Shown: positions 774 through 13,119 of the stretch, piece after piece
How the letters are laid out: each line of letters starts with the position of its first letter
How positions within the stretch are numbered: position 1 is the first letter of the stretch
From: Candidatus Pacearchaeota archaeon
Lineage (GTDB): Archaea; Nanoarchaeota; Nanoarchaeia; Pacearchaeales; GW2011-AR1
Assembly (NCBI GenBank): GCA_023228065.1
Contig: JALOBX010000012.1
Location: 1-13,723 of the forward strand
DNA: 13,723 nt
Reading direction: 5' to 3'
Program-made: the position numbers and the translations under genes
Notes under the pieces: model-generated
The model's input: the letters and a program-made list of their open reading frames with translations, nothing else
What the model was told of the DNA's origin: nothing
Databases searched by the model: none

Positions 774-790
774 CTTTCCTCCTCATTGTT

Positions 791-1282
791 TTAATTTAAT
801 TCAATCAGTTCGACTTTTGTATGATCAAATTCTTTTCCACTTGACATCACATCACTTGTCTTCTGGCATAAATTATCCCAAAATTGGAATACATAGTATT
901 TTATTGGTTCATAATCATCCTTGACATTTTTCCAGAATATTTTTGCTAATCTTTTTCTTTCTTTGTAATAATTATCTAATTTTTCATCGTCACCAACATT
1001 CATATCCTCAAAATCAATAAATCTATGCAATTCATTGGATGTTTCAATAGCCAAAATAATTTTACTTTCCGGCTCTGGCCCGAATTTTATTTTGTTATAT
1101 ATTATTTCTGCTGCTGTAACAGTGGACAATTTTTTTCCCTCGTGTTCTATATAATTTTTATTGCCATACATGAATGTTCTCAAATCTTTTATGCTTTTTA
1201 TTTTTTTCAAATCTTCTTTATAAAATCCTACAATAAATGAACAACTGGAACTGTTAGAAACAAAATCAGTTCTTATTTTCAT
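791..1282 (-). CDS. FVSNSSSxSF-tag protein 1 (163 aa)
   Basis: The start is ATG 1280-1282, behind GGTGG, because the shared N-terminal tag begins exactly there; a longer frame to 1333 would overlap the upstream gene and hide the tag. The first residues are MKIRTDFVSNSSSCSFIVGF; this copy has Cys where the other three have Ser. The rest is a paralog of the neighbour at 1291-1830. Both carry an RLxKIFWKN segment followed by a Tyr-rich strand ending near a W/S-D-N, and end with an E/T-F-D motif. No catalytic motif is recognised. I recall similar N-termini in uncharacterised proteins of Firmicutes and phages, but know of no function. Confidence 0.85.
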   Translation of the reverse strand: MKIRTDFVSNSSSCSFIVGFYKEDLKKIKSIKDLRTFMYGNKNYIEHEGKKLSTVTAAEIIYNKIKFGPEPESKIILAIETSNELHRFIDFEDMNVGDDEKLDNYYKERKRLAKIFWKNVKDDYEPIKYYVFQFWDNLCQKTSDVMSSGKEFDHTKVELIELN

Positions 1283-1290
1283 GCCACCAC

Positions 1291-1830
1291 CTAATGATGT
1301 GAAAATCGTAAAGTTTTTATTGTGCAACAACAATTATCAAAGGTTGGTCCATGCTCTAATACGCATTCTTCTTCACTTTGATTATCCGAAAATTCTATTA
1401 TGATGTATTTGGTGTTTTCATAATCATATTTTGTATGATTTTTCCAAAATATTTTTGATAATCTATTTCTTTCTTCGTTCTCTTTGTTTTCCATTTCATC
1501 TTTTTCAACATCGGTTAGTTTATTATTAAAATGACGATTTTTTAGTTCTGGATCAATATAATCACCAATCATGTAACTATTATAAATAAGATCCAATATT
1601 TCTTCTTGTTTCGCAATCTTTGCATTTTTTATTTCTTCAAATAATATTTCAGATGCTTGATCTGTTGATATTACATGATCATAATATTTTAATTCTTCAA
1701 CATCTTTAAAGAAGTATTTTTTTACTGCTTCAGCACCTTTCTTTTTTATTTCCTTAAGATATGAACTTGGAATTCCTATAAGAAAGGAACTTGATGAACT
1801 GTTAGAAACAAAATCAGTTCTTATTTTCAT
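1291..1830 (-). CDS. FVSNSSSSSF-tag protein 2 (179 aa)
   Basis: ATG 1828-1830 follows AGGGAG, which sits over the stop codon of the upstream gene. The first residues read MKIRTDFVSNSSSSSFLIG, with the same tag as its three neighbours. The middle is rich in Lys and Glu and probably helical. The segment RNRLSKIFWKN and the following KYIIIEF strand match the protein encoded at 791-1282, so the two are tandem duplicates. A CCC cluster lies near the C-terminus (about residues 167-169) and has no counterpart in the paralog. The function is unknown. The DNA over the first 13 codons is almost identical to copy 1, consistent with recent duplication. Confidence 0.85.
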   Translation of the reverse strand: MKIRTDFVSNSSSSSFLIGIPSSYLKEIKKKGAEAVKKYFFKDVEELKYYDHVISTDQASEILFEEIKNAKIAKQEEILDLIYNSYMIGDYIDPELKNRHFNNKLTDVEKDEMENKENEERNRLSKIFWKNHTKYDYENTKYIIIEFSDNQSEEECVLEHGPTFDNCCCTIKTLRFSHH

Positions 1831-1841
1831 TTATTCTCCCT

Positions 1842-2189
1842 TTATTCATCACTATAACTCCCACCTTGAATTTTCAATGAATTTTCAAATCCAACTTCAA
1901 TTTTTAATTTTTTTAACTCATTAATAGTTTGTTCAACATCTTCTAATTCCAAAATTGCGTATTCACTCTCGCTGCTATAACAACCAATATGAATATCCTC
2001 GTCATCTCGTCCAATATCAATATAAAGCTGACTTGTACCAAATCTATTTATTGATTTTAAATCAAAATTTTTAATTGTTTGAATTATTTTTTTCTTGTGC
2101 TTTTTGTATTCATTTTTCGTAAAAACATATCCTGCAAATACAAACGAACTCGATGAACTATTGGAAACAAAATCCATTCTTATTTTCAT
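1842..2189 (-). CDS. FVSNSSSSSF-tag protein 3 (115 aa)
   Basis: The start ATG 2187-2189 directly abuts the stop of the upstream gene, with TGGAG upstream. The N-terminus MKIRMDFVSNSSSSSFVFAG carries the shared tag. The remainder (about residues 20-115) has no visible similarity to copies 1, 2 or 4. It has a Lys-rich helix (residues 27-45), an acidic IGRDDEDIHIG segment, and a predicted alternating strand/helix pattern resembling a small alpha/beta domain. No catalytic residues can be proposed. The combination of a constant tag and an unrelated body is the key observation for this cluster. Confidence 0.85.
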   Translation of the reverse strand: MKIRMDFVSNSSSSSFVFAGYVFTKNEYKKHKKKIIQTIKNFDLKSINRFGTSQLYIDIGRDDEDIHIGCYSSESEYAILELEDVEQTINELKKLKIEVGFENSLKIQGGSYSDE

Positions 2190-2570
2190 TTAGTCTCCAG
2201 GCAAAATTATTTTTACTTTAGAAAGATCTTTCTTTAATTCCTCATAATTGCAGTAATTTTCTAGCATTTCTTTCTTTAATTCTTCATATGACATTCCTAA
2301 TTTTTTAAATGCATACTTATAGACATCAAATATTGATGCTGTTTTCATTTGACATATTGGGCAATATTCCTTTGGAATTTCATCAAAATCATCAATCTCC
2401 ATATCATCATTTTTTATGACATGGTCTTCCTCCAAAATGTGTCCATTTACACATTCTACCAAATCAAAATCATCAAGTCCCGCATCATATCCACTTTCTA
2501 TACATCCGGTTTCATCAATAATATATGACGACGATGAACTATTACTTACAAAATCCAAACGAATTTTCAA
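2190..2570 (-). CDS. FVSNSSSSSY-tag protein 4 with Cys/His zinc-type motif (126 aa)
   Basis: The start is TTG 2568-2570, not ATG. AGGAGG lies 5-6 nt upstream and the tag MKIRLDFVSNSSSSSY follows at once, so the choice is firm. After the tag the protein is very acidic. It holds a CVNGHILEEDH segment (about residues 40-50) and CPIC (about 70-73), which together could form a Cys/His zinc site. A helical C-terminus rich in Lys/Glu/Leu follows. It is the first tag gene behind the radical SAM gene: its ribosome site lies at the radical SAM stop codon and only 8 nt separate them. Function unknown. Confidence 0.85.
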   Translation of the reverse strand: MKIRLDFVSNSSSSSYIIDETGCIESGYDAGLDDFDLVECVNGHILEEDHVIKNDDMEIDDFDEIPKEYCPICQMKTASIFDVYKYAFKKLGMSYEELKKEMLENYCNYEELKKDLSKVKIILPGD

Positions 2571-2578
2571 TAATCCTC

Positions 2579-3652
2579 CTAATACAAATCAAAAATAGGA
2601 CAAGCTCTGCAAGTCTTGCTTATATCATGTTTTTGATTTATCAGTAAATTTCTAAACTTGATTGTTTCAGGATGATACCACACATCCTTCAAAAAATCTT
2701 TACAGTTTACAACATCAATTCCTTCCCATCCCTTTTCTCCTTCAGTGAATGAACAATGAAAATATCTTCCATCTGCATTTATATAACTGCTAAAACAACT
2801 TGATTCACATGCTTCACTTAAAGAATCGTACATCTTAAAATTTTCATGCTCTTCTATGCACTTGAGAAAATTTGGAACAAAACAGGAATCAAATCCAAAT
2901 TTTATATGTTTTTCAAAAGCATAATCTATTAATTTTTTTAATTTTTCTATATTCTTTATTACGGTAAATTTATTTCTTTTTCCCTTTGGTTTTAAAGATA
3001 AAAATACAACAGCATTTAAATTTTTCAGTCTTTCATCAGTTTTGATATCATCTATTAATTCAAAACACTTATCATATGTTTCCTCTGATAACAGCATATG
3101 AATATTTACTTTTTTCATTCCATGATTTGTTATTTCTCTAACCGCATTATAACAAACATCTTTTGGTTCATATCTCGATATTGCTACAGCTCCACATAAA
3201 CTTGAAATGTTTTTTGCATATTCATCAGTTATATTCCAACCATTTATTGTAACATTTGGAACTATTCCTTTTAATTTTGTATATTCAAATATATTCCAGA
3301 TATCTGGATTGGAATCAATATCTCCAATACCAAATGCAACCTGTGTCAATACTTTTGGCATTTTATCAAGAATGGTTTTGAATACTTTAAATGTCATATT
3401 TTTTCCAGTTCCCGTGTTACTCTTATAGCAATGTAAGCATGGCTTGTTATTTATTCCATGACATATCGTTGATATTTCTATATCCAATATTTCAGGTCCA
3501 AATGGAGCAAAACTTGGATCATCCTCCGAGTTTCTTCCCCACCTTGCAAAGAATCCTGTTTTTTTATTGAAAGTGTATTTGTAGTTTTTGCTTCTGAAAA
3601 TTTTCATTTCAGAACTATCACTAAGAATTCCAGGATTAGTACTACGAAACAT
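2579..3652 (-). CDS. Radical SAM enzyme with SPASM-like C-terminus (357 aa)
   Basis: ATG 3650-3652 is chosen because GAGAGG lies just upstream; a longer in-frame start at 3682 has no better support. C64, C72 and C75 form a CX7CX2C cluster in ISTICHGINNKPCLHCYKS, the place where radical SAM proteins bind the catalytic [4Fe-4S] and S-adenosylmethionine. The following GIGDIDSNP (108-116) matches the glycine-rich SAM-binding strand. The C-terminal third has eight more cysteines (257, 265, 282, 286, 300, 317, 348, 351), including an ending CRACPIF as in SPASM auxiliary-cluster domains. Such enzymes often modify peptides or proteins. It overlaps the RNA ligase gene by 11 nt and is followed by four tag genes, possible substrates. 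The wide CX7CX2C spacing is unusual. Confidence 0.85.
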   Translation of the reverse strand: MFRSTNPGILSDSSEMKIFRSKNYKYTFNKKTGFFARWGRNSEDDPSFAPFGPEILDIEISTICHGINNKPCLHCYKSNTGTGKNMTFKVFKTILDKMPKVLTQVAFGIGDIDSNPDIWNIFEYTKLKGIVPNVTINGWNITDEYAKNISSLCGAVAISRYEPKDVCYNAVREITNHGMKKVNIHMLLSEETYDKCFELIDDIKTDERLKNLNAVVFLSLKPKGKRNKFTVIKNIEKLKKLIDYAFEKHIKFGFDSCFVPNFLKCIEEHENFKMYDSLSEACESSCFSSYINADGRYFHCSFTEGEKGWEGIDVVNCKDFLKDVWYHPETIKFRNLLINQKHDISKTCRACPIFDLY

Positions 3653-4790
3653 GTTTACCTCTCTCTTTTTCCAACCTTTCAAACAATGTTATCTTACCAT
3701 TATCTGACATATTATCAATGATTTTACCAAGTTCATTTCCTTTTCTTAGCATAAACATGATTGAGGAAATTGGTGTGTCTTTGACCTTTAATGCAAATTC
3801 TTTTTGATCTTGAATATGCATTGTTGTTTCAGACAATTTATTTATAGAATCGTACATATATTGTCTGGATTCTATATATTTTTCAAAATATGGTTTATCT
3901 TCTGGAAATGATGCAAGATATTCATCTTCATTGCATGATAACACAATTTTTATTATGCTCTTTGGATTCAATTGCCCATTGCATCTCAGATTTGAAAATG
4001 CCAAATACGCTGGATTTTTAATTTTTAATCTTGTTTGTCCACCATGCCCATCATCATAAACAAAAACATAACCTTCAAATGTTTCACCTAATGATGGGAG
4101 AGATTTCAGTGATTCTAGTATTTCATCTATATTTTTAAATGTTGGACCTTTTACGTATGGATTTATCATCGGAAGATGTTTCTCAAATATCTCGGCGGCT
4201 TCATAATAGTTCAAATAGTTTCCATTGTATTTATTTCTTATTGCAATTCCATGTATGGCTGTTTTTGGATAACGATTTATAATTCTTGTTTCAGGAGAAA
4301 CTAATTCAAAAATATATGTATATTTAATATCGGCCCAATTTTTGAACATTTCATCAACTGAAGTTCCTAACACTTCCTCGAATAACATTCTGAATGTTTT
4401 GTCATTGTTTGAAAACACTGTTCCTTCTGCAAATGCCATTTTTCTTGTTGAACATTGCCATCTTATTCCATCATGATATACATTAATTAATGATCCATCA
4501 ATTTTGATTGTGCAATAACTTTTTGTGATATCAAAATCTTCTTTATCTTTTCCGTGATCGAAAAATCTATCAAATGATCTACATAAAATATTTAAAGTTG
4601 GAATGGATAAAATCAATGCTCTACATTCCCTGACAATAGGATTGAAACGATGTTTATGTGATTCAATTTGATCGTAATTTAATACAACTCTATCTTCATA
4701 TAATTTATTTGTTATACCAAATTCAGTTTCAAGATTTTTTAAACCTTCGTTTATATCTGAAAATTTTTTCAGATACTCTATAACTCTCAT
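3642..4790 (-). CDS. RNA ligase, T4 RnlA (Rnl1) type
   Basis: This 382-aa protein carries the full set of nucleotidyltransferase motifs in the Rnl1 arrangement. Motif I is KIDGSL with K96 as the predicted AMP-accepting lysine, preceded by RECRALIL and RSFDRFFDHG as in T4 RnlA. FELVSPETR (161-169, E162) is motif IIIa, EGYVF (239-243) motif IV, and KIKNP (256-260) motif V. The length is close to the 374 residues of T4 RnlA. The enzyme joins 5'-phosphate and 3'-hydroxyl RNA ends using ATP, and in T4 it repairs tRNA cut by host anticodon nucleases. The ATG at 4788-4790 has GAGGAG 7 nt upstream. It lies 9 nt after the methyltransferase and overlaps the radical SAM gene, so all are one operon. No polynucleotide kinase partner is in view. 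Confidence 0.92.
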   Translation of the reverse strand: MRVIEYLKKFSDINEGLKNLETEFGITNKLYEDRVVLNYDQIESHKHRFNPIVRECRALILSIPTLNILCRSFDRFFDHGKDKEDFDITKSYCTIKIDGSLINVYHDGIRWQCSTRKMAFAEGTVFSNNDKTFRMLFEEVLGTSVDEMFKNWADIKYTYIFELVSPETRIINRYPKTAIHGIAIRNKYNGNYLNYYEAAEIFEKHLPMINPYVKGPTFKNIDEILESLKSLPSLGETFEGYVFVYDDGHGGQTRLKIKNPAYLAFSNLRCNGQLNPKSIIKIVLSCNEDEYLASFPEDKPYFEKYIESRQYMYDSINKLSETTMHIQDQKEFALKVKDTPISSIMFMLRKGNELGKIIDNMSDNGKITLFERLEKERGKHVS

Positions 4791-4799
4791 TGGATCTCC

Positions 4800-5450
4800 T
4801 CAAATTTTTTTACATATATAATATGCAGAATTTTTTATTTTTATTAAGTCAATATTAAAATACTTTTCTAATACATCTTTGAATTCTTTTTCAGATATAT
4901 ATGGAAATGAATTTGTGTCAATTAAATCCTCACAATGTTGGGTATGCATAATTATATTATTTTTTGAAACTGTGTTTAATTCAAAATAGTTTCTGTTATT
5001 ATATGTATATTTTTTAGAAGAATATGTTTCGGGAATATTTGTAAAAGTATTAAACATTAATATTCCATGTTTTTTAATTGATTTATGAAGTTGTTTTATA
5101 ATTTCTTCGTTAAACCAATAGTTGATTGCTTGCTTACATACGACCACATCATATTCCCAATTATTCAAAAGAAATATAAAATTCCTAACACTGGCATATG
5201 TTATTTTGATAAGTCTATGTGGAATCAGAGATGATCTTATCATATTTGAATTTTCATCTACATACCAAACTTTTTTGGTCTGTAGTTTATTTAATAAAAA
5301 TTCAGATAGATCTCCAGTTCCACCACATAAATCTAAACACACTATGTCTTTTTTTCTTTTAATTGTATCTCCGAGAATACTTTCAAAATTTTTATTATCA
5401 AGATATTTAGCATATAAAATTACGTATTGTTCATAAGTTAAATTGTTCAT
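4800..5450 (-). CDS. Class I SAM-dependent methyltransferase
   Basis: The 216-residue protein has the Rossmann-type methyltransferase signature VCLDLCGGTGDLSEFL (about residues 37-52) as motif I, an acidic residue after strand 2 (WYVDENSN, about 72-79), and a strand-4 region YDVVVCKQAINYW (about 99-111). The C-terminus is short and rich in Lys and aromatic residues. The substrate cannot be inferred from motifs. The start ATG overlaps the stop of the CoaB/aldolase gene as ATGA, so the two are translationally coupled and may act on the same small molecule; alternatively it serves the RNA ligase next door. Confidence 0.88.
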   Translation of the reverse strand: MNNLTYEQYVILYAKYLDNKNFESILGDTIKRKKDIVCLDLCGGTGDLSEFLLNKLQTKKVWYVDENSNMIRSSLIPHRLIKITYASVRNFIFLLNNWEYDVVVCKQAINYWFNEEIIKQLHKSIKKHGILMFNTFTNIPETYSSKKYTYNNRNYFELNTVSKNNIIMHTQHCEDLIDTNSFPYISEKEFKDVLEKYFNIDLIKIKNSAYYICKKI

Positions 5451-6592
5451 ATTAGATTTCCCTCTTTGTTGAACAGTAAATAAGCACCGTGTTCATTTAT
5501 ATTGAAGGATGAATTAATCAATGATTCATCTCTTAAAGAATCTCTTAAAGTTCCAGATGGCGCATATTCTAACGATTTTAATTCATTAATATTTAAATGT
5601 AAATGAACTATATGATCAACGTTTCTATTTGTTTCAAAAATTCTATATAGCAATGGAGAATTTATTGGTGATTTTGTATTTTCTTGATCGAACATTGATG
5701 AGTATAATACAACTCTATTTTCATGATCAACATGTTCAACCATAATTAATTTGTCAATATAATCAATTCTATTTTTATTTCTGATAGTGGTATAAAATTT
5801 ATTATCATTTAATCTAATAGCAATACAACCATGTGAGGTATTAAATCCAATATTTGATTCTATAAATTCCTTTGAAAATTTATTTTTTATTTTATTTATT
5901 TTTTCCAACCATTTAGGATTTAGATTTCTTGGTTCTTCCTGTATTGATTTGTAATATTGATTTGTGGCATTCTGGAATATATATTCTGCCAACTGATTCC
6001 TTCTAATTTCTTTAATTCCACATTCTTTATTTAGAATAAGTATTCTATTTAAATTGCTTGGATTATTTGCAAATATTGCATTTGCCTTCGATTCTTTTAA
6101 TGTTAAATATGCCGCTCTTAATAATTCATCATCCTGGGCATCCAATAATTTAAATCCAAACAAAATATTTTTATTGTTGATTCTTTTAATTTCATTTATG
6201 ATTCTTGGAGCTATTTTGAATGGAATATTCACTATATCATTTTCTGAATATTCATGACTTGGAAATTTATTTTTCCATGGGGATGACGGAATTAGATTTG
6301 CAACAGCAGCTCCCAGTATAAAACAATTATTATCTTTTTTTGCCAAATCTATCAAAATTTCACGATAGTCTTCAAACCCATTGTGATATATTGTATTCCA
6401 AGGAGATTCTACTTGGTTTAAATTAGTGGTTATATATGTAATAAATTCTTCCGAATTATATCCCTTTTTGAGCATCAAGTTCCATAAATCACCAATAAAA
6501 CTTAGCATTAATTTTCCTTTAAACTTATTGGTGATAATTTTAACTGAATCTAAATATGCATGGACTGGACCACCAGTGATTATGAAATTCAT
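5447..6592 (-). CDS. Two-domain protein: CoaB-like (DFP) domain fused to class II aldolase/adducin-like domain
   Basis: ATG 6590-6592 follows AGGAGAAAAT, so it is preferred to the TTG five codons upstream. The N-terminal half (1-205) resembles the phosphopantothenate-cysteine ligase domain of CoaBC: ITGGPVHAYLDSVKIITN (5-22), GAAVAN (94-99), a KIAP segment (126-129), and GFKLLDAQDD (146-155) followed by ANAIFANN. The C-terminal half (about 240-381) resembles class II aldolase/MtnB proteins: SHGCIAIR (253-260), VHLHLN with H330 and H332, and NEHGAYLLF with H368, giving the three zinc-binding histidines of the family. No flavin decarboxylase (CoaC) domain is present. I infer a nucleotide-dependent step on a carboxylate substrate coupled to an aldolase or dehydratase step. 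It heads the operon 23 nt downstream of an RNA terminator. Confidence 0.8.
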   Translation of the reverse strand: MNFIITGGPVHAYLDSVKIITNKFKGKLMLSFIGDLWNLMLKKGYNSEEFITYITTNLNQVESPWNTIYHNGFEDYREILIDLAKKDNNCFILGAAVANLIPSSPWKNKFPSHEYSENDIVNIPFKIAPRIINEIKRINNKNILFGFKLLDAQDDELLRAAYLTLKESKANAIFANNPSNLNRILILNKECGIKEIRRNQLAEYIFQNATNQYYKSIQEEPRNLNPKWLEKINKIKNKFSKEFIESNIGFNTSHGCIAIRLNDNKFYTTIRNKNRIDYIDKLIMVEHVDHENRVVLYSSMFDQENTKSPINSPLLYRIFETNRNVDHIVHLHLNINELKSLEYAPSGTLRDSLRDESLINSSFNINEHGAYLLFNKEGNLI

Positions 6593-6615
6593 ATTTTCTC
6601 CTGTCAAAATTTTTT

Positions 6616-6654
6616 AAAAAAAAGAGAGAGGGGCCGCACAGTTACATCTGCGGC
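6616..6654 (-). terminator. 3' terminator of the structured RNA
   Basis: GCCGCA and TGCGGC (6633-6638 with 6649-6654) form a perfect 6-bp GC-rich stem with a 10-nt loop. On the minus strand it is followed by CCC, a CT tract and eight T residues (6616-6623). Nine of the ten loop bases (6640-6648) are complementary to 6683-6691 upstream in the same RNA. The next gene starts only 23 nt beyond the T-run, so the terminator also stands between the RNA and the enzyme operon. Confidence 0.75.
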
Positions 6655-7090
6655 ATGGGCGATTTCCTATTCTATATAATAGGATGTAACTTATTTCTTA
6701 CGCCTTTCGCTATGACTGTTGTTCCTTTTATGTGGTACCATGGGATCGCAGGTGGGCGGTCCCAATAAAAGGCAGCATAACTCCACCATCTGCCTATTCC
6801 GATCCATTGGGCTAGCCATTATCGGATTTCGTAATCAGATGGATTCAAAAGATGGAAGTGTTAAACTATTTGATTTTGCCTCTTTCGAGGCTCCGTGCAG
6901 CATATCCACGGAGTGAGGTCTGCGGGTTTATCCTTGACCTTTTCGCCAGCTTTGTCTCGGAAGAGCTCCACCTCCGGTTTCCCGGCTAGCTTCAACACCC
7001 AACACCGATCCCAATCCCTAACAAAAGTTTCGGGCTCTAAGGGAGGCTGACTCCAGACGACGGCCATCTCCAGCTGGTTTTAATCTCCCA
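6616..7090 (-). ncRNA. Large structured noncoding RNA candidate (~475 nt)
   Basis: This gene-free block is far richer in G and C than its surroundings and is full of perfect helices on the minus strand. CCGG-GAAA-CCGG lies at 6974-6985 and AGGTC/GACCT at 6916-6920 with 6936-6940. CTCCGTG/CACGGAG is at 6891-6897 with 6907-6913, abutting GCCTC-GAAA-GAGGC (6878-6891). CCATCTG/CAGATGG pairs 6836-6842 with 6786-6792, enclosing TCCGAT/ATCGGA (6821-6826 with 6798-6803). CCTTTTAT/ATAAAAGG pairs 6765-6772 with 6724-6731, with TGGGA/TCCCA nested inside and TATGCTG/CAGTCATA extending it outside. CCTATT/AATAGG is at 6678-6683 with 6666-6671. Two GNRA tetraloops and a 3' terminator fit a stable RNA. Size and phage context recall ornate phage RNAs such as GOLLD and ROOL, but I cannot match it to either; tmRNA, RNase P and group I intron signatures are not seen. 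The 5' end is uncertain, probably within 7070-7095. Confidence 0.8.
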
Positions 7091-7094
7091 ACCT

Positions 7095-7268
7095 TCAACG
7101 CAATCCGCCATCATCTAAACAGATCTCTACACTCCTGTTTTTATCATAAGATTTGTAGATTAGATTATGTGCATAATAACATGTATCACATATCTTTTCT
7201 ACTCCTCCTCTGGAAACTTTTATTTCTTTTGTTGCTTCTTCTTTTTTACACCATGGGCAAATACTCAT
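7095..7268 (-). CDS. Small zinc-ribbon protein (57 aa)
   Basis: The start ATG 7266-7268 overlaps the upstream stop as ATGA, which makes translational coupling likely and explains the weak ribosome site. A longer frame to 7298 would lie inside the upstream gene. The protein has CPWC at residues 4-7 and CDTC at about 27-30, a clean two-knuckle zinc ribbon. A Tyr-rich tail and a last Cys near 50 follow. No partner or function can be named. It is the last protein gene before the structured RNA, so the RNA may be transcribed from the same promoter and cut out, or have its own. Confidence 0.72.
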   Translation of the reverse strand: MSICPWCKKEEATKEIKVSRGGVEKICDTCYYAHNLIYKSYDKNRSVEICLDDGGLR

Positions 7269-7522
7269 TTTAGCATCTCTTCTAGTCTTTTTCTCCACTC
7301 GATGAAGGATTCGGAAATTACATTATCTAACGCTTTTTTTGCATTGATAATACTTTCCGTATTTGATCTGGTAACTTTCATTGAGGAAAGGTATTCCTCA
7401 AAAGTTTTCACTGCAATTTCTTTTGGTTCTTCTTTTTCAAACACCCTGATTTTCAGAGTGTTCTTGAGATCCAACAGACATACTGGAATCCCAACCCCAT
7501 TAAACCCGACCGATTGCTGCAT
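7265..7522 (-). CDS. Hypothetical protein (85 aa)
   Basis: The frame starts at ATG 7520-7522 with GGGGGAG about 5 nt upstream and ends in the ATGA overlap with the zinc-ribbon gene. The N-terminal third is probably beta (GFNGVGIPVCLLDL, then NTLKIRVFEKEEP). The C-terminal half is a long amphipathic helix region rich in Glu, Lys and Leu (about residues 40-84). I do not recognise the family. Its position in a run of four short coupled genes between a terminator and the structured RNA suggests a small early or host-takeover type protein, which is only inference. Confidence 0.7.
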   Translation of the reverse strand: MQQSVGFNGVGIPVCLLDLKNTLKIRVFEKEEPKEIAVKTFEEYLSSMKVTRSNTESIINAKKALDNVISESFIEWRKRLEEMLK

Positions 7523-7545
7523 TTCACTCCCCCTTGAAACTTTCT

Positions 7546-7719
7546 CTACCTTTTCAATATATTTCCAGTTGATCGATCAAGATTACTTAAAATAATATTT
7601 GTTGGTTTTTGAATATTATTTAATTTTGAAACTTCCTCCTCTATTTTTTTTATTATCTTCTTTGCAGCAGGATCATCGAGAGCTTCAAATTCCCATACCA
7701 ATTTGAATGAAAATTTCAT
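7546..7719 (-). CDS. Hypothetical protein (57 aa)
   Basis: ATG 7717-7719 has AGGAGAG 10 nt upstream, and the frame ends at TAG 7546-7548. The sequence begins with a short strand (KFSFKLVWEFEA), then a basic/acidic helix (AAKKIIKKIEEEVSKL, residues 19-34), and ends in a Ser/Asn-rich tail. The opening resembles small phage proteins with one beta hairpin and one helix, but no family is recognised. The next gene starts 23 nt downstream with its own strong site. The codon pattern and ribosome site support a real gene despite its length. Confidence 0.68.
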   Translation of the reverse strand: MKFSFKLVWEFEALDDPAAKKIIKKIEEEVSKLNNIQKPTNIILSNLDRSTGNILKR

Positions 7720-7725
7720 TTGCTG

Positions 7726-7794
7726 TTACTCTCCTTTCTCCGGAAATAATCCAAAAACAAAACAAATTATATTGTGGACTTGAATTGACACCAT
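7726..7794 (-). CDS. Possible 22-aa leader peptide gene
   Basis: A 22-codon frame begins at ATG 7792-7794 (or the next codon, GTG) behind AAAGGAG and ends with TAA at 7726-7728, six bases before the start of the 57-aa gene, whose ribosome site lies inside it. The peptide is hydrophobic in the middle (HNIICFVFGLF, residues 7-17), so it could be a membrane micropeptide or a leader coupling translation. The short spacing from GGAG to ATG favours the GTG start. It is the only coding candidate between the terminator at 7893-7932 and the next gene; the rest of 7795-7892 is AT-rich and probably holds the promoter for this group. Confidence 0.4.
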   Translation of the reverse strand: MVSIQVHNIICFVFGLFPEKGE

Positions 7795-7892
7795 ATCTCC
7801 TTTTAAAAAAAGAATAACTGACTTATCAATTAATCTATATATGTAATTTAATGGATCATAAAAAAGAGGAAATTTTGATCGAAATTATGAAC

Positions 7893-7932
7893 GCAAAAAA
7901 AGCTCGGATCTTATATCCAAAATCCGAGCTTT
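7893..7932 (-). terminator. Intrinsic terminator
   Basis: An 11-bp perfect stem (7899-7909 with 7922-7932, core AGCTCGGAT, 12-nt loop) is followed on the minus strand by seven T residues (7895-7901). It lies about 11 nt after the stop codon of the 110-aa gene and ends the right-hand minus-strand operon. Confidence 0.88.
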
Positions 7933-7942
7933 ATATTTGAAA

Positions 7943-8275
7943 TTAAGAAATGCTAATCAACTCATAAGCAACAATATCCTTGAGAATATTATTCCATGTA
8001 TCTTTTCTAAAAGGTCCATAATATAAATCATCACCACGTTTAAAATTTTCATTTGGTAGTTGTTTCCGGCACATTGCAACTGCTCCTAGAAACCCACCAT
8101 CTGGACCATCCAATGCCGTGATGTCATAGTAATGCTCATCGGTGTATATTCTATATTTAACACCGCTCTTGTTATTCAATTCTAATTTTTTTAAGAACTT
8201 ATCTTTTGGTCTAAACGTGGATAACTCCTCAAACCATTCTTCTAATAGCTCGTAGTTGCTTTTATGAGTTGACAT
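7943..8275 (-). CDS. Hypothetical protein (110 aa)
   Basis: ATG 8273-8275 has AAAGGGG 9 nt upstream, lying across the stop codon of the preceding zinc-ribbon gene. The sequence looks like one compact alpha/beta domain. There is an N-terminal helix (NYELLEEWFEEL), then strands around VKYRIYTDEHYYDITAL (residues 39-55), a Gly-rich turn GPDGGFLGAV (57-66), and a C-terminal helix. YYGPF near residue 86 and the Asp/Gly-rich turn are the most distinctive parts. No catalytic signature is recognised. It is the last gene of its operon, 11 nt before the terminator. Confidence 0.8.
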   Translation of the reverse strand: MSTHKSNYELLEEWFEELSTFRPKDKFLKKLELNNKSGVKYRIYTDEHYYDITALDGPDGGFLGAVAMCRKQLPNENFKRGDDLYYGPFRKDTWNNILKDIVAYELISIS

Positions 8276-8279
8276 CTAT

Positions 8280-8465
8280 TTATTCCCCTTTAAAAAAGAT
8301 TTTTTTATCACCATAAAAATAATCATGATTTGCTTTTGCTTTTTCTATATCTGGATTTTTTATACAATCATCACAAAAATCTAGACATATATCTTTATTT
8401 ATTGCTACAATATGAAAATTTTTTATCTTTTTTCCGCACTCATCACAGATTATAATAACAGACAA
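8280..8465 (-). CDS. Small zinc-ribbon protein (61 aa, TTG start)
   Basis: The start is TTG 8463-8465 with AAAGGGGG 5-8 nt upstream; no in-frame ATG is better placed. CDEC at residues 7-10 and CDDC at about 31-34, with Cys 27 in between, give a zinc-ribbon arrangement. The C-terminus is Lys- and aromatic-rich (HDYFYGDKKIFFKGE). The stop codon overlaps the ribosome site of the next gene. The function is unknown; it belongs to a set of at least seven short Cys-pair proteins scattered through this window. Confidence 0.75.
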   Translation of the reverse strand: MSVIIICDECGKKIKNFHIVAINKDICLDFCDDCIKNPDIEKAKANHDYFYGDKKIFFKGE

Positions 8466-8477
8466 CAGTATCCCCCT

Positions 8478-8762
8478 TTAGTTATTCTCGTTCATTTTAT
8501 CTACAAAACTTTTTAATGTGGATATCATATCTTTATAATCTTCTATTTTTTCATTGAGATTTTTATTTTCCGTATATAGATCCACCAATGTTTCTGATAC
8601 TTTTTCAACCAATGTTGATTTTTCGAATACTTTCCACACCAGAGATAAAATTATATTTCTGTCTCCTCTGAATTCATTTTTTACATCTAGCTTATCTAAT
8701 AATTTTTCTAATTCTAATCTCCTGTTTTCAACATTTAACAAACTATTTTCCATATTTTCCAT
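8478..8762 (-). CDS. Coiled-coil hypothetical protein (94 aa)
   Basis: ATG 8760-8762 overlaps the stop of the preceding gene as TAATG, with GGAGG 9 nt upstream. Almost the whole sequence is helical and charged, with heptad-like Leu/Val spacing in RRLELEKLLDKLDV (residues 14-27) and LYTENKNLNEKIEDYKDMIS (62-81), suggesting two coiled-coil segments around a hydrophobic middle (IILSLVWKVFEK). A second Met at residue 4 is a possible start. It may be a distant cousin of the 79-aa gene just upstream, which has a similar helical make-up. No function can be given. Confidence 0.75.
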   Translation of the reverse strand: MENMENSLLNVENRRLELEKLLDKLDVKNEFRGDRNIILSLVWKVFEKSTLVEKVSETLVDLYTENKNLNEKIEDYKDMISTLKSFVDKMNENN

Positions 8763-9001
8763 TAATCATTTCCTCCAACTTTTATATCATCAATATCTTT
8801 TTGAACAATATCTTCCATTATTATATCTTCCAATATTTTAATTTTTTTATTTAAAACATCAACCATATCAATCAGATTGCGATTAATTATACTCTGTTGA
8901 ATAACAAATTCTTTTAATTTCATAATAGTATCGGAATCTTCAACAGATTTACAAACATCAATAACTGATTCATTCATCATTTTAATTCTATCTTCATCCA
9001 T
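8762..9001 (-). CDS. Helical hypothetical protein (79 aa)
   Basis: ATG 8999-9001 is chosen because AAGGAG lies 9 nt upstream and it gives an 8-nt overlap with the HAD gene; the longer frame to 9106 would run over 100 nt inside that gene. The protein is helical, with an LxxMVDVLNKKIKILEDIIMEDI stretch split by heptad-spaced Ile/Leu (about residues 41-63), so it probably dimerises through a coiled coil. The tail is acidic (DIDDIKVGGND). It is coupled on both sides. No family is recognised. Confidence 0.72.
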   Translation of the reverse strand: MDEDRIKMMNESVIDVCKSVEDSDTIMKLKEFVIQQSIINRNLIDMVDVLNKKIKILEDIIMEDIVQKDIDDIKVGGND

Positions 9002-9389
9002 TCGAATTCTCCTTTTTTGTAAACTCTTCAACAAGATAGTGTCTAAATATTCCCCAAACTTCTGGAGTGATGTTTCTATGGTATGGTGAAAAATTTCTAT
9101 CATCAATTAAAACATCCCAATATGGTTTTGATTTGGAAAATGTATCATCAACTTCAATATAATTTTTATTTACAGCATCAAATTCCAAACCTCTTTCCTT
9201 GCACCACTCAACTGCTTCTTGTAGATGTTTTCCCTCTCTACATGTATAGAGAATAATTTTATGACCAATTTTTCTACATTCTATAAGTGTTTCTATTGCC
9301 CCGGATATAGGTTCCCCAATTTTAGGAAAGTTTCCTTCCTGTGCAATAGTCCCATCAAAATCAGTAGCAATTATCATAAATTTATTCAT
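8994..9389 (-). CDS. HAD-superfamily phosphatase-like hydrolase (131 aa)
   Basis: ATG 9387-9389 follows GGGAG and is preferred to the in-frame ATG four codons upstream. The HAD motifs are clear: DFDGTI (D10 nucleophile, D12 acid/base), LYTCRE with T49, and DVLIDDRNF with D95/D96. K74 or K87 is a candidate for the motif III lysine. There is no large cap domain; 131 residues fit the minimal HAD fold seen in phage nucleotidase-like proteins. The likely reaction is phosphomonoester hydrolysis, substrate unknown. It could supply the 3'-phosphatase role that T4 Pnkp provides alongside RNA ligase, but nothing in the sequence specifically shows that. Confidence 0.87.
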   Translation of the reverse strand: MNKFMIIATDFDGTIAQEGNFPKIGEPISGAIETLIECRKIGHKIILYTCREGKHLQEAVEWCKERGLEFDAVNKNYIEVDDTFSKSKPYWDVLIDDRNFSPYHRNITPEVWGIFRHYLVEEFTKKENSNG

Positions 9390-9522
9390 TGACACTCCCA
9401 TCTATCTTTTTCTTCTTTCTAGTTGTCTTCTTAATTTCCAGTTTATTTTTAATGAGTTTTTCAATTGAACTCAACCTTTCTAGAATTTCATCTAGTTTTG
9501 GAATCGGATTAATTAGAGGCAT
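9382..9522 (-). CDS. Small basic protein (46 aa)
   Basis: The frame starts at ATG 9520-9522 behind a very strong AGGAGGGG and ends at TAA 9382-9384, overlapping the HAD start by 8 nt. The first 30 residues form a probable helix (LDEILERLSSIEKLIKNKLE). A strongly basic stretch KKTTRKKKKI (residues 31-40) follows, which could bind nucleic acid. It is too short for family recognition. The ribosome site and overlap make it a real gene despite its size. Confidence 0.72.
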   Translation of the reverse strand: MPLINPIPKLDEILERLSSIEKLIKNKLEIKKTTRKKKKIDGSVNE

Positions 9523-9533
9523 TTTAACCCCTC

Positions 9534-9797
9534 CTATTTTTTATTTGTCAAACTAAATATCATATCAATCAATTTGCCAATTTTAATATTTTCCATATTA
9601 CTTCTATTTTCATTTGTAAAATCTAAATTAAAATGTTGATCTATTAAATTTAAAAATAAATACAGATCGTTTTCATCAATGCCCATATCACTTCCCAATC
9701 TAAAACTAGGGAGAAAATCAATTATACCAAATGATTCTTTTAAAATTTCAGATAGTTTAAGAGAAATCATTTCTTTTGTCATTTTAAATTTCTTCAT
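9534..9797 (-). CDS. Acyl-carrier-protein-like protein without the phosphopantetheine serine (87 aa)
   Basis: ATG 9795-9797 has GGAG 8 nt upstream. The layout is that of a four-helix ACP: helix 1 (EMISLKLSEILKESFG), a long loop, then LGSDMGIDENDLYLFLNLIDQHFNL (residues 34-58, matching the LGxDSLDxVEL-type helix 2 and the ExFGI segment), then IKIGKLIDMIFSL (71-83, matching the TVGDLVDYI helix). At the DSL position the sequence is D41-E42-N43, so the serine that carries 4'-phosphopantetheine is replaced by Glu. It is therefore either a non-carrier structural relative or a chance resemblance. No acyl or peptide synthesis enzymes are nearby. Confidence 0.6.
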   Translation of the reverse strand: MKKFKMTKEMISLKLSEILKESFGIIDFLPSFRLGSDMGIDENDLYLFLNLIDQHFNLDFTNENRSNMENIKIGKLIDMIFSLTNKK

Positions 9798-9825
9798 ATG
9801 GATATCTCCAATCCAGTATTAAATT

Positions 9826-10218
9826 CTAGATTTTATTTTTAAGATTCTTATACACACTATTTTGCATTCTAGATATTATTTCATGGCTGTGATGTGTCAT
9901 AACCCTTCTTGGAACATCATATTTAAATGAGATATCATTTAATTTAGCCAGTAATAACTCGCACACCTCATGAAACGCAGTGGTTCTAATACATTCCTCT
10001 TTTTCTTCCTTTGTTAAAGTTATGTTGTTCCATTTTTTCTCAAGATTTATTGTAACTATCATACCACTCAAATCCCAAGAACACCATCCTAATACCTTAT
10101 CTGGATCTGTTGAAACGTTTGAATAATTTATATCCCATTCTGATAATCCCCAAAATTTGATCCACTTTTCACATTCTCTAACATATAATTGGAAGTCTTT
10201 TTTGCTTGTTATTATCAT
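9826..10218 (-). CDS. Zincin-like putative metallopeptidase (HExxE variant, 130 aa)
   Basis: ATG 10216-10218 follows GAGGAAT. A long N-terminal alpha/beta region (WIKFWGLSEWDINYS...VTINLEKKW) precedes the helix TTAFHEVCELLLAKL (residues 79-93), which carries H83-E84-x-x-E87. A second His-Glu pair is in HSHEIISRMQN (110-120). This order resembles small phage SprT-like or zincin-like proteins that end in a helix with HE(x)nRLE-type sequence. Classical members have HExxH; here the second His is Glu, so metal binding may use the downstream histidines or activity may be lost. The role in phage growth is unknown. Confidence 0.65.
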   Translation of the reverse strand: MIITSKKDFQLYVRECEKWIKFWGLSEWDINYSNVSTDPDKVLGWCSWDLSGMIVTINLEKKWNNITLTKEEKEECIRTTAFHEVCELLLAKLNDISFKYDVPRRVMTHHSHEIISRMQNSVYKNLKNKI

Positions 10219-10221
10219 AAA

Positions 10222-10314
10222 TTATTCCTCTATATCCGTGTTTCTTATAAATACTTTTAAAACCCAAAGTGCCATATAGCAAGAAATGAAAGATAAACAA
10301 AACATAAATTTCAT
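10222..10314 (-). CDS. Short membrane protein (30 aa)
   Basis: ATG 10312-10314 has GGGGGAAG 5 nt upstream. A longer frame starting at 10452 lies inside the HD gene and is rejected. The 30 residues are one hydrophobic segment, FMFCLSFISCYMALWVLKVFI (split at about residues 3-12 and 13-23), followed by a charged tail RNTDIEE. That is the pattern of a single-span membrane micropeptide. It sits 13 nt after the HD gene and 3 nt before the zincin-like gene, so it is co-translated. The function is unknown. Confidence 0.65.
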   Translation of the reverse strand: MKFMFCLSFISCYMALWVLKVFIRNTDIEE

Positions 10315-10327
10315 ATACTTCCCCCTA

Positions 10328-10963
10328 TCATACAACAGCAGAAACATCAGCAATATTTGTTGCCATAGTATCTGCAACATGTAATAATAAAGATAACGGC
10401 CATGTTTTCCAAGCTTGTTGCATGGAAGATTCTCTATCGTATCTATTACCAAAATGGAATGCCCCCATATGATAATTTATAGCAGCTATTTCTGAATGAT
10501 CTAATTTCAAACCAAATTCAGATAACATATAGACTGATTTCTCACCATGCCCCAACGGTAAATCATCTTTAAATAAATATCCACTATAACTTTCCCACCT
10601 ATTTGTTTTTTCATTTTTTCTTCTTCTTTCCTGCTCCACATATACATTTGTTTTACATATATCATGAAACCATCCACTGATTAAAATCGATTCTATAGGA
10701 ATTTTTATATGTTTAATGCCATGCATTTCGTTTAATTTAGTGAGATAACAAACAACATGATATGAGTGTACTAATAATCCATATTCACAATGCAAATGGT
10801 ATTGTGTTGATGCTGGAGCATACATAAAATCACTTTCGTTAATATACTCCAGGACTTTTTCAATGCCGTCTCTTTTAACTGTTTTCATATCATCTTCAAA
10901 CGCCTTCATAGCCCTAGAAACTAAAGATTGTCTAATCGCCATATCTTGTTTTAATTCTGACAT
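10328..10963 (-). CDS. HD-domain phosphohydrolase-like protein (211 aa)
   Basis: ATG 10961-10963 has AAAGGAG 9 nt upstream. The HD signature is complete and ordered: H66 in YGLLVHSYHV, H100-D101 in GWFHDICK, H139 in LGHGEKS, H165 in INYHMGAF, and H195 with D198 in LLLHVADTM. These residues bind one or two metal ions and hydrolyse phosphate esters such as nucleotides or cyclic nucleotides. The spacing H...HD...H...H...D is that of two-metal HD hydrolases. A short basic insertion QERRRKNEKTNRW (111-123) lies between motifs and could touch nucleic acid or nucleotide phosphate. The substrate cannot be named from sequence. Confidence 0.87.
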   Translation of the reverse strand: MSELKQDMAIRQSLVSRAMKAFEDDMKTVKRDGIEKVLEYINESDFMYAPASTQYHLHCEYGLLVHSYHVVCYLTKLNEMHGIKHIKIPIESILISGWFHDICKTNVYVEQERRRKNEKTNRWESYSGYLFKDDLPLGHGEKSVYMLSEFGLKLDHSEIAAINYHMGAFHFGNRYDRESSMQQAWKTWPLSLLLHVADTMATNIADVSAVV

Positions 10964-11015
10964 CTATATATACTCCTTTTTTATTTTGTTAATGTTTTTT
11001 TAAATTCATTTTTTT

Positions 11016-11258
11016 TCAATACATCATGTATTTATCTCTAAGAAAAATTCCACTCCATGTCATTTTAGAATTTGATCCGCTGTGAACTTTATACTTTCTA
11101 ATTTTAAATTTGAATCCACATTTCTTACAAATAAAAAAATTATTTGTATATAAATTACACCCATCATGCCCGGTAATTATGCTTTCTTTCTCAACATCAT
11201 CTTTATGAAAAATAAAACAATATTTTGCTCTGAGATAAACTAAAAAATTTAAAAACAT
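11016..11258 (-). CDS. Small zinc-ribbon-like protein (80 aa)
   Basis: ATG 11256-11258 has AAGGAG 9-10 nt upstream. The N-terminal 17 residues are hydrophobic and aromatic (MFLNFLVYLRAKYCFIF). Cys 34 and the pair CKKC at 44-47, followed by GFKFKIRKYKV, suggest a one-sided zinc ribbon or rubredoxin-like knuckle. The C-terminus is basic and aromatic. The gene is 52 nt upstream of the HD gene; this gap is AT-rich and shows only the HD ribosome site. No function is assigned. Confidence 0.7.
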   Translation of the reverse strand: MFLNFLVYLRAKYCFIFHKDDVEKESIITGHDGCNLYTNNFFICKKCGFKFKIRKYKVHSGSNSKMTWSGIFLRDKYMMY

Positions 11259-11273
11259 AAAAATATTCTCCTT

Positions 11274-11435
11274 TTATTTGAATTCCAATATCCATTTTAG
11301 ATGCCTTAATTTATTATCGTAAAAAACAAATTGACTTTGTGGCAATGGTCTTGCAATTATTTTTTCTATTTCATGAATTTCCATTATTATCTGTTTTTTG
11401 TTTTTATATCTATAATCTATCAAACTTCCCGGCAT
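11274..11435 (-). CDS. Small hypothetical protein (53 aa)
   Basis: ATG 11433-11435 is chosen because GGAGGA lies 6-8 nt upstream. A longer frame starts inside the right end of the neighbouring TnpB element (11504) and is an artefact of the insertion. The protein is basic, with a central helix IMEIHEIEKIIA (residues 17-28) and an RHLKWILEF tail. It is the first minus-strand phage gene downstream of the inserted element. Its original promoter would have been upstream, so the insertion separates the gene from the divergent promoter region near 12.8 kb. Confidence 0.62.
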   Translation of the reverse strand: MPGSLIDYRYKNKKQIIMEIHEIEKIIARPLPQSQFVFYDNKLRHLKWILEFK

Positions 11436-11470
11436 ACTTAATCCTCCATACAGAAACAATTTTATTTTTT

Positions 11471-11640
11471 TTCTTCGAATGATTTCGTGGATACTCCCCG
11501 GCATAAATGCCGGAGCATTTAAGGATTTGCACCCAGGCTATCTATACCGAGAGCCAATATGTTCAAAGCTGCATTCTCATCTCGATCCATAATGAGTCCG
11601 CATTGCGGACATCTATGAGTTCGTTCCGAGAGTGCTTTTT
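11471..11640 (-). ncRNA. Predicted omega (re)RNA with guide, copy 1
   Basis: In known TnpB systems a noncoding RNA covers the 3' end of tnpB and the right end, then runs into the flanking DNA, which serves as the guide. By that rule the scaffold ends at 11487 and the guide is the minus-strand sequence from 11486 downward, beginning GAAATCATTCG. The 5' boundary given here is only approximate. This entry is inferred from element architecture, not from a recognised RNA consensus. Confidence 0.45.
11487..11520 (-). repeat. Right-end hairpin of TnpB element, copy 1
   Basis: CCGGCAT and ATGCCGG (11498-11504 with 11507-11513) form a perfect stem beside CTCC, giving the subterminal hairpin expected at an IS200/IS605 right end. 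The same sequence recurs at 13470-13501 beside copy 2. The tnpB stop codon lies within 6 nt of the stem, so gene and end overlap, as in elements whose guide RNA comes from this region. Confidence 0.85.
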
Positions 11641-12619
11641 TGACTAAGGTATTGCATTGAGAGCATTGTTGACTGGTATATCTTGGATTGACGAGAATCA
11701 TATTTCTACCAGCACTTTCAGCCTTGTAGGAAGTTAGATCAATCAATTTAGACCAAGATGCATCAGCAATGCTCTTACTCAGCTTTCGATTGTGCATCAT
11801 TCCTTCAACATTCAAATCCTCGAAAACGAGGATTTGATATTGTTGCACAAGATAATGGCTGAGTTTGTGTGCAAAGTCGTTTCTCCGATTGGAGATATGT
11901 TCATAAATATGTTGGACCCGTTTGACACACTTTTTCCGTTTCAATGAGCCTTTCTCTTGTTTGCTCAACTTACGTTGAGCTCTAGCAAGAAGACTCTCAT
12001 CTTTGCGGAAGAATCTTGGATTTTCAATCTTCTCTCCGTTGGAGAGTGTTGCGAAATGAGTCAACCCGAGATCAATGCCGATAGCTTTCTCGTTCAATGG
12101 GAGCGGAGATGCTTCCACTTCACACGAGAAAGAAATCCACCATTTTCCGAGGATATCTCTTGTCAATATGAGAGTCTTTATTTTTCCCACAATCTCTCGG
12201 TGATAGACAATCTTCATTTCACCAATCTTGGAGATATGAATTTTCTTGCCAGACAACTTATATCCACCTTGTGGAAATGTTAAAGATTTATATCTGGTGA
12301 GAGATCTAAACCTCGGATATCCGGGATTTTCTTTCAACTTGCAACGCCGGAAATAATGTTTAAATGCATTGTCAACACGAGCGCACACGTCTTGCAACGA
12401 TTGTGAGTGAACCACTTTGAGACTCGGATTCTCAACTTTCAATGCTGGGAGCATGTTGATTGTTTCGAATTTCGAAACAGATCTCTTTTCCTGTTCCCAA
12501 ACATTCTTCCGAGTCTCAAGAATGTGATTATACACAAAACAACAATTAGACAGAATAACACCCAATTTCCTCCGTTGGAGTTTATTGGGGTATATTCTGT
12601 ATTTAAATGTTTTCATCAT
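11519..12619 (-). CDS. tnpB: TnpB RNA-guided nuclease (IS200/IS605 accessory protein)
   Basis: This 366-residue protein is a complete TnpB. The N-terminus FKYRIYPNKLQ is typical, a helical and basic recognition region follows, and the split RuvC site is intact: D183 in AIGIDLGL, E267 in VFEDLNV, and D345/D347 in MDRDENAALNIL. The zinc knuckle is C319/C322 with C337/C340. TnpB uses a right-end RNA to cut DNA beside a short target-adjacent motif, helping the element persist after excision. The GGAG is about 14 nt from the ATG, a poor spacing, so translation may be weak. The coding sequence is richer in GC and more conventional in codon use than its AT-rich neighbours, consistent with transfer from a bacterial host. 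Confidence 0.95.
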   Translation of the reverse strand: MMKTFKYRIYPNKLQRRKLGVILSNCCFVYNHILETRKNVWEQEKRSVSKFETINMLPALKVENPSLKVVHSQSLQDVCARVDNAFKHYFRRCKLKENPGYPRFRSLTRYKSLTFPQGGYKLSGKKIHISKIGEMKIVYHREIVGKIKTLILTRDILGKWWISFSCEVEASPLPLNEKAIGIDLGLTHFATLSNGEKIENPRFFRKDESLLARAQRKLSKQEKGSLKRKKCVKRVQHIYEHISNRRNDFAHKLSHYLVQQYQILVFEDLNVEGMMHNRKLSKSIADASWSKLIDLTSYKAESAGRNMILVNPRYTSQQCSQCNTLVKKALSERTHRCPQCGLIMDRDENAALNILALGIDSLGANP

Positions 12620-12707
12620 TGCAAGATATAAATCTCCTTTTCAATACTCAAATTTGTATTTGTTTATGGAAAAACAAATGAATATTTTTTCAATGATTGT
12701 TTTCTAA

Positions 12708-12755
12708 TTCATCCGATTCATCCATGGTCTAAAGCCCATGGTTTTCTCGGATGGA
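12708..12755. repeat. Left-end hairpin of TnpB element, copy 1
   Basis: Two nested arms form an imperfect palindrome: ATCCGA (12711-12716) with TCGGAT (12747-12752), and CCATGG (12722-12727) with CCATGG (12736-12741), separated by 5x5 internal loops and an 8-nt apical loop. The outer arm can extend by three more pairs, one of them G-T. No T-run follows on either strand, so it is not an intrinsic terminator. The position about 90 nt upstream of tnpB fits the left end of an IS605-type element. Confidence 0.65.
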
Positions 12756-12965
12756 AATAAAAAATAAAGCATTTTAGTATGTTCACTTAAAATCAAATCC
12801 AACCCATTCTGATCATTCAATAATAAATATATGTAGTGAAATGACCTTTCTAAAAAAACAATAACTACATATATATCTTAAATGTCGAGAGAGATTTTTT
12901 ATTTTTATAAACTAAAAGGGGGATTACTAGAATTATTTTTTCCTAAAATTAATTGGGGGTAAAAT
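12756..12965. promoter_or_regulatory. Divergent control region with 11-bp inverted repeat
   Basis: This AT-rich gap separates minus-strand from plus-strand genes. ATATATGTAGT at 12827-12837 is repeated inverted at 12864-12874, 26 nt apart, so the same ACTACATATAT element points outward in both directions. A related TTACATATATA stands on the minus strand near 7833-7843, upstream of another gene group. TATAAA occurs at 12906-12911, 55-60 nt before the plus-strand gene, with no convincing -35 box. AT-rich motifs recur by chance here, so a promoter role is only suggested. Confidence 0.3.
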
Positions 12966-13109: not shown

Positions 13110-13119
13110 AAAAAATAAG

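Follow-up and report, generated by a model that had tools for sequence, protein, structure and literature searches.

The 479-nt region 6616-7094 lies between the stop codon of gene 7095-7298 and the start of a CoaB-like gene in the window (the whole 13,723-nt stretch of DNA analysed here), and its 3' part, of about 285 nt, is probably a structured RNA of no Rfam class, judging from this single sequence. In our best reading, this core would either exist as a free RNA or serve the CoaB-like and methyltransferase genes that follow it as a partly terminated leader. We tentatively favour, as plausible and still short of probable, a structured non-coding RNA (ncRNA) of the minus strand that is probably set free by a partial stop or cut at its 3' end, with read-through into these genes. 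The composition of the region, its excess of helices, its position and the lack of a known family are direct observations. The features concerned are collected in Table 1.

Table 1 Features of the region and of its surroundings. Positions are those of the window; mean pair probabilities (m.p.p.) come from the fold of the whole region.
Feature	Positions	Strand	Details
Gene upstream of the region	7095-7298	-	67 aa, two CxxC pairs; stop codon adjoins the region
5' part	6914-7094	-	181 nt, GC 0.54; includes the 4-bp GAAA hairpin and most of ORF 7067-6861
GAAA hairpin	6974-6985	-	4 bp; in the 5' part
Structured core	6630-6914	-	285 nt, GC 0.46
Hairpin CUCCGUG/CACGGAG	6891-6913	-	9-nt loop; 7 bp, perfect; m.p.p. 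0.87
GAAA tetraloop hairpin GCCUC-GAAA-GAGGC	6878-6891	-	5 bp, perfect; m.p.p. 0.94
Stem CCAUCUG/CAGAUGG	6786-6842	-	encloses hairpin UCCGAU/AUCGGA (6798-6826); m.p.p. 0.37, 0.59
Long extended hairpin GUUAUG/CAUAGC, CUG/CAG, CCUUUUAU/AUAAAAGG	6709-6781	-	m.p.p. 0.63, 0.65, 0.71
Hairpin UCCUAUU/AAUAGGA	6665-6684	-	7 bp, perfect; m.p.p. 0.96
9-nt complement AGUUACAUC (6691-6683)/GAUGUAACU (6648-6640)	6640-6691	-	perfect; upstream segment against the loop of the 3' hairpin
3' hairpin GCCGCA/UGCGGC	6616-6654	-	10-nt loop, then CCCUCUCUC and U8; atypical, terminator-like
CoaB-like gene	5447-6607	-	downstream of the region; PF04127, DFP C-terminal domain, Pfam E 3.6e-13
Methyltransferase-like gene	4800-5450	-	behind the CoaB-like gene; six Pfam methyltransferase matches, one above cut-off
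RNA ligase, tail-fibre-attachment family			phrog_562, E 3.8e-45
Radical-SAM-like protein			phrog_7293, E 2.3e-100
Further genes of the window: CoaB-like, methyltransferase-like, HD-domain protein, TnpB			Pfam search

A GC-rich region in a phage-like setting

The window is AT-rich and its gene content resembles that of a large phage. The genes judged real between 374 and 11504 are all on the minus strand, and ORF 13163-13489 is the sole exception to this direction among the genes taken as real. The phrog_7293 protein is read as radical-SAM-like on the strength of weak NCBIfam matches and of how its phage relatives are named. Relatives of the RNA ligase (570 records) and of the HD-domain protein (38 records) are without exception below 60% identity, and the proteins 9829-10218 and 1294-1830 had no match in phages. 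Gene 7095-7298 has a Pfam match below threshold only. The CoaB-like gene starts either at ATG 6592, which is likely and is preceded by AGGAG, or at TTG 6607; its product has 341 homologues at E <= 0.001, none exceeding 44% identity among the 120 matches listed. Single-protein scans of viral contigs confirmed no relative of the CoaB-like or of the radical-SAM-like protein, and BLASTN of the DNA flanking the region on both sides against 50,697 phage records returned nothing at E <= 1e-5.

Long GC-rich intergenic regions are the basis of published searches for bacterial structured RNAs (GC-IGR; PMC11109978; PMC8723152). The original prediction had described a stretch of about 475 nt, without a credible gene and GC-richer than its flanks, and the contrast is confirmed: GC is 0.482 in 6616-7094 vs 0.284 for the rest of 1-11478, where 502 overlapping 479-nt windows have a mean of 0.283 and a maximum of 0.355. 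This comparison covers 1-11478 and leaves out 11479-13723, which holds the TnpB genes. These genes are also GC-richer (about 0.40), so that a raised GC content can simply mean foreign DNA.

Helices are confined to the 3' part

We counted perfect Watson-Crick helices (6 bp or more, spanning no more than 60 nt) and compared their number with that in shuffles that keep dinucleotides. The whole 479 nt contain 10 helices against a shuffle mean of 4.06, a number reached by 0/60, 1/200 and 7/500 shuffles. At least eight perfect helices had been announced; ten were indeed found, some of them mutually exclusive, but all are confined to 6633-6913 and none lies in 6914-7094. For the core alone, 10 helices compare with 2.37 expected and none of 500 shuffles reaches this count, while the minimum free energy on the minus strand has a z of -2.76 (2/100 shuffles as good). 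As the limits of the core were chosen after the helices were seen, 0/500 is optimistic and 7/500 is the fair figure. The 5' part has 0 helices vs 1.46 expected, and folds with a z of +1.13. The "large, ornate" RNA of 475 nt initially proposed is therefore retained for its 3' 285 nt, which combine an excess of helices with minus-strand GNRA loops and with the GC contrast, but not for the 5' part, which is about 40% of it. The present value of the work lies in the exact list of helices and in this reduction from 475 to about 285 nt; as a single sequence, the RNA is a candidate.

The whole region folds only slightly better than its shuffles (z -1.5, 10/100; in a repeat z -1.6, 7/100), and its folding energy is not significant; under the identical measure, a phage tmRNA has a z of -1.7 and a group I intron a z of -3.4. 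The helix excess fades at longer spans, 11/60 shuffles being as rich as the region at a span of at most 150 nt and at least 7 bp, and 5/60 at an unlimited span and at least 8 bp. When the same count was made in 28 adjoining segments of equal size, two were unmatched by any of 40 shuffles: 16-494, and 6722-7200, into which most of the candidate falls. Segment 6243-6721, which includes the 3' end of the candidate, was ordinary (24/40 shuffles). Helices beyond chance for the composition, as looked for in a structured ncRNA, are thus present in the core and, at the level of 7/500, in the whole region. Segment 16-494 includes a terminator-like hairpin near 332-368.

Both GAAA tetraloops of the original prediction were verified, at 6974-6985 with a stem of 4 bp and at 6878-6891 with one of 5 bp. 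The nested domain placed at 6724-6842 fared less well: its helices CCATCTG/CAGATGG, TCCGAT/ATCGGA and CCTTTTAT/ATAAAAGG were located, but on the minus strand it folds with a z of only -0.6. The 17-nt loop of the UCCGAU/AUCGGA hairpin contains the palindrome GGCUAGCC (6817-6810), which would allow self-pairing and nothing more. Two long-range pairings, TGGGATCG/CGATCCCA and GCTAGCC/GGCTAGC, were set aside at mean probabilities of 0.07 and 0.06, and helix CCAG/CTGG was rejected at a probability of 0.

Several of these observations would also be expected if the region were recently acquired, GC-richer foreign DNA without RNA function, with hairpins that are remnants or due to chance. The TnpB genes of the window share the raised GC, the 5' 181 nt are GC-rich but unstructured, the helix excess of the whole region is reached by some shuffles and fades at longer spans, and BLASTN of phages, plasmids and fetched records found no relative. 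We regard this origin as unlikely, since the core excess is reached by no dinucleotide-keeping shuffle (with post hoc limits) and two GNRA hairpins occur on one strand.

Strand of the candidate RNA

Four tetraloop hairpins with stems of at least 4 bp are present, of which two are GNRA on the minus strand and none on the plus strand; GAAA fits the GNRA tetraloop consensus, and two GNRA loops are reached by 4/500 shuffles. The whole region is more stable on the minus strand (-151.8 vs -142.2 kcal/mol on plus), whereas the core is more stable on the plus strand (-88.6 vs -83.6 kcal/mol on minus), with z values of -2.23 on plus vs -2.76 on minus. For the domain 6724-6842, the plus-strand z is -2.8, well below that of the minus strand. 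Because plus-strand folding is as good or better, the strand rests on the two GNRA loops and on the direction of the genes; the evidence is mixed, and an RNA on the minus strand is likely. Promoter-like sites are no more numerous than expected (4 found vs 2.9).

The repeats might instead act as DNA, in the form of single-strand hairpins at a site of replication, packaging or recombination. In favour of this, a perfect inverted repeat can form a hairpin whichever strand is read, and folding of the core is no worse on plus than on minus. Such a role appears most improbable: the two tetraloops are GNRA only on the minus strand, the cumulative GC skew takes no lasting turn at the region, where gene direction is also unchanged, and no direct repeat of the region occurs elsewhere in the window.

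Reading frames within the region

The longest open stretch of the region has 72 codons, less than the shuffle mean of 82, and is reached by 339/500 shuffles. Three ORFs of the region have no Pfam match, and no homologous protein was found for the two longest; the plus-strand frame 6719-6916 returned no homologous protein in a search by five-residue words and no Pfam match. The most protein-like of the listed frames is ORF 7067-6861 on the minus strand (68 aa), with a codon-position GC of 0.59/0.43/0.59, and it covers most of the helix-free part. Were it a small foreign gene making up the 5' part, only 6860-6616 would be intergenic, with a terminator-like end. This reading is very unlikely, its length being usual for shuffles and its coding score being matched by 16% of 2918 shuffled open stretches. 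Moreover, among about 5.8 billion proteins no candidate shared three five-residue words with it, a search that remote relatives would escape, and it had neither a confirmed relative in viral contigs nor a Pfam match. The GGAG in front of its ATG abuts it with no spacer, and a Shine-Dalgarno sequence needs spacing before the ATG. A hidden protein gene is disfavoured as no homologues were detected, and a small gene in the 5' part has a small chance. The earlier view that the stretch lacks a credible gene consequently stands as far as homologues are concerned, and needs to be softened for the mildly coding-like frame 7067-6861.

The 3' end and the downstream genes

A terminator had been predicted at the 3' end of the RNA. 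A canonical intrinsic terminator has a GC-rich stem with a U run directly behind it, as is the case for hairpin 7930-7901 of the same window, where the T run directly follows the stem. At the 3' end of the candidate the stem is present (6654-6633), but U8 (6623-6616) begins 9 nt behind it, the consensus terminator scan did not call the hairpin, and the mean pair probability of the stem in the fold of the whole region is 0.1, so that the prediction fails in its canonical form. The sole terminator-like match of the scan is inside the core, at 6787-6771 (1 found vs 1.1 expected).

The region is directly upstream of the CoaB-like gene and on the same strand, with ATG 6592 placed 24 nt behind the U run. 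The 23 nt that separate the two are too short for a promoter, which suggests that transcripts of the gene either pass through the RNA or start inside it; the best sigma-70-like match, 6607-6579 (11/12), spans the CoaB-like start codon. Furthermore, a perfect 9-nt complement to the loop of the 3' hairpin, reached by 2/2000 single-base shuffles of the 60 nt upstream (a post hoc comparison), is found in the core. Reasoning from the sequence, hairpin and complement cannot both form fully, as one nucleotide would have to bridge nine pairs. Taken together, these points would fit a leader (5' UTR) that acts in cis on the CoaB-like and methyltransferase genes: the 3' hairpin would be an attenuator, AGUUACAUC could pair with its loop, and the choice between the two structures would determine whether transcription ends or continues into the CoaB-like gene. 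We consider such a leader somewhat unlikely. Within the 3'-terminal 84 nt the hairpin is the preferred form, at -17.5 kcal/mol vs -11.3 for the forced 9-nt alternative, whose probability in the fold of the whole region is 0.01, against 0.1 for the hairpin stem; in this alternative it is the loop, and not the stem, that is bound, and the U run stands 9 nt off the stem.

The viral loci fetched with the CoaB-like protein also argue against a leader conserved with the gene. In 8 of the 15, a same-strand ORF ends at most 20 nt from the start of the CoaB-like relative or overlaps it (distances from a greedy ORF list, L013 giving no resolved distance), which indicates that a long structured leader is not the usual setting of the gene there, and in none of the 15 does the RNA find a match above chance. 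The relative is preceded by a gap of about 280 to 400 nt in L004, L006 and the pair L002/L003, with little or no rise in GC, and by shorter gaps, of about 50 and 120 nt, in L009 and L010. This lack of a conserved leader leans towards a free RNA, or towards a leader specific to the lineage.

Methyltransferase relatives are present in 14 of these 15 loci, directly behind the CoaB-like gene in 13 of them and 1.2 kb further on in L004. As regards the pair of genes (4800-6607, minus strand), five of the 15 viral contigs measure 200-550 kb. In L006, a 195-kb virus contig, a tmRNA gene (8130-8476; 132.6 bits, alpha_tmRNA) follows this gene pair at a short distance.

Search for relatives

The window and 14 fetched loci were searched with the Rfam covariance models. 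In the window no match reached the gathering score; with E relaxed to 10, only three chance-like matches were obtained around the region, to CRISPR-DR66 (outside the region), snR55 (plus strand, at its edge) and HOTAIRM1_3. The search proposed along with the original prediction thus returned no credible family, and its suggestion of a divergent GOLLD or ROOL is not borne out. No covariance-model match was obtained for GOLLD, ROOL, OLE, HEARO, raiA, tmRNA, RNase P or group I/II introns. ARAGORN reported no tmRNA and no tRNA in the window. The same kind of Rfam search did detect the tmRNA of L006 and, in L024, a group I intron. A GOLLD scan of 40 related virus records gave no match, but it drew no match in its control genomes either and so carries no weight.

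The BLASTN hunt for homologues, also foreseen earlier, produced no credible relative in phage, plasmid or fetched viral records. With the region as query, there was no match at E up to 1 in phages or plasmids. In the 15 loci with a CoaB-like relative the best match of the RNA had an E of 1.1, and the 14 whole records gave five short matches of 16-26 nt (E 0.09 to 0.47); BLASTN was run on all 15 loci and the models on 14, L002 being omitted as it gave the same matches as L003. Among the 29 loci fetched with a serine-rich protein of the window, 11 of 27 whole records had short matches at E <= 0.5. Two of these were below 0.001: the one in L052 is a C/U-T tract, and the one in L051 (25 nt) lies where an open frame of at least 516 codons begins. 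Three patterns of 17-19 bases, searched in all viral contigs, hit 4, 0 and 0 contigs; in the 4, the likeness stops after 17-18 nt and the match falls inside open stretches of 124-165 codons.

Single-sequence covariance models were built for 6620-6786 (R1) and 6784-6920 (R2), with self-matches of 215.5 and 180.1 bits. In 40 virus records R1 found nothing at E up to 5, and R2 gave five matches of 9 to 11 bits (E 0.6 to 3.3) that are taken as chance. All these searches reach related or near-identical RNAs only, and an empty result is not proof of uniqueness.

Proposed mode of expression and comparison with known RNAs

We infer transcription, strand, 3' end, accumulation and a role as free RNA from the arrangement described above. 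The RNA would be made from the minus strand within a transcript coming from gene 7095-7298. The core (6914-6630) would then fold into about six hairpin elements, of which one has a GNRA loop and the last precedes a pyrimidine tract. A fraction of the time, transcription would stop, or the transcript be cut, at the 3' end, so that the RNA accumulates in free form, and read-through past this end would supply the CoaB-like and methyltransferase genes. As to what the RNA does, its place and shape are our only guides, and any function suggested here is putative.

The nearest counterparts in the literature are large phage RNAs whose function is unclear; GOLLD, ROOL and OLE have symmetric kissing loops among their contacts (PMC12286853). 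The candidate resembles GOLLD (RF02032) and ROOL as a GC-rich, multi-hairpin ncRNA stretch in a phage-like genome with a palindromic loop. It differs from them in having no covariance-model match, a structured part of only about 285 nt and no evidence of oligomers; linker tRNAs, which GOLLD has only sometimes, were not found by ARAGORN in the window. It is quite unlikely, in our estimate, that the candidate represents a new class of phage structured RNA from an unsampled lineage, perhaps self-pairing through the GGCUAGCC loop and with a 3' hairpin that doubles as a gene switch.

With the candidate motifs of the GC-IGR searches, the candidate shares the discovery signal, a long GC-rich intergenic region. 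Those motifs reportedly rest on homologues with conserved structure, whereas the candidate is known from one sequence. A large motif from the same pipeline, smtA, is set apart in its report as exceeding the length of most riboswitches and as a motif of undetermined function (PMC11109978). Finally, attenuators and riboswitch-type leaders have in common with the candidate a hairpin and U run before a metabolic-type gene and a complement upstream; unlike them, the candidate does not recur with the gene across the viral loci examined and has no Rfam match, and, compared with attenuators, its energetics are one-sided in favour of the hairpin. If transcribed and conserved, the favoured structured RNA would add a phage RNA covered by no Rfam 15 model.

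Other observations in the window

Two copies of the TnpB gene are present on the minus strand, the second cut off by the end of the window. Their 3' ends (11479-11740 and 13462-13723) are 90% alike over 262 nt, a stretch that extends past the stop codon into an inverted repeat, which points to a recent spread inside one phage-like genome. TnpB relatives in bacteria and archaea, at 11 loci, belong to mixed phyla; their best segments are 29-76% identical, the higher identities over short segments only. The idea that the region is a copy of TnpB-associated transposon sequence was dropped, since self-comparison gave no match to the TnpB part beyond 15 nt.

At 791-3682 on the minus strand, four consecutive serine-rich proteins share a near-identical N-terminus, MKIRxDFVSNSSSSSF with small variations, and differ further on; they adjoin the radical-SAM-like protein. 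The MKIRxDFV...NSSSSSF motif strings had no mention in the literature searched. In all 29 viral loci fetched with one of these proteins (some of them near-duplicates), a run close to MKIRxDFVTNSSSSSF is seen, with 2 to 6 copies on one strand in 27 of the 29, and a radical-SAM-like relative lies within the fetched flank in 28. The stretch 791-3682 resembles a RiPP-like cassette for peptide modification in a phage, in which the leader is shared while the cargo changes.
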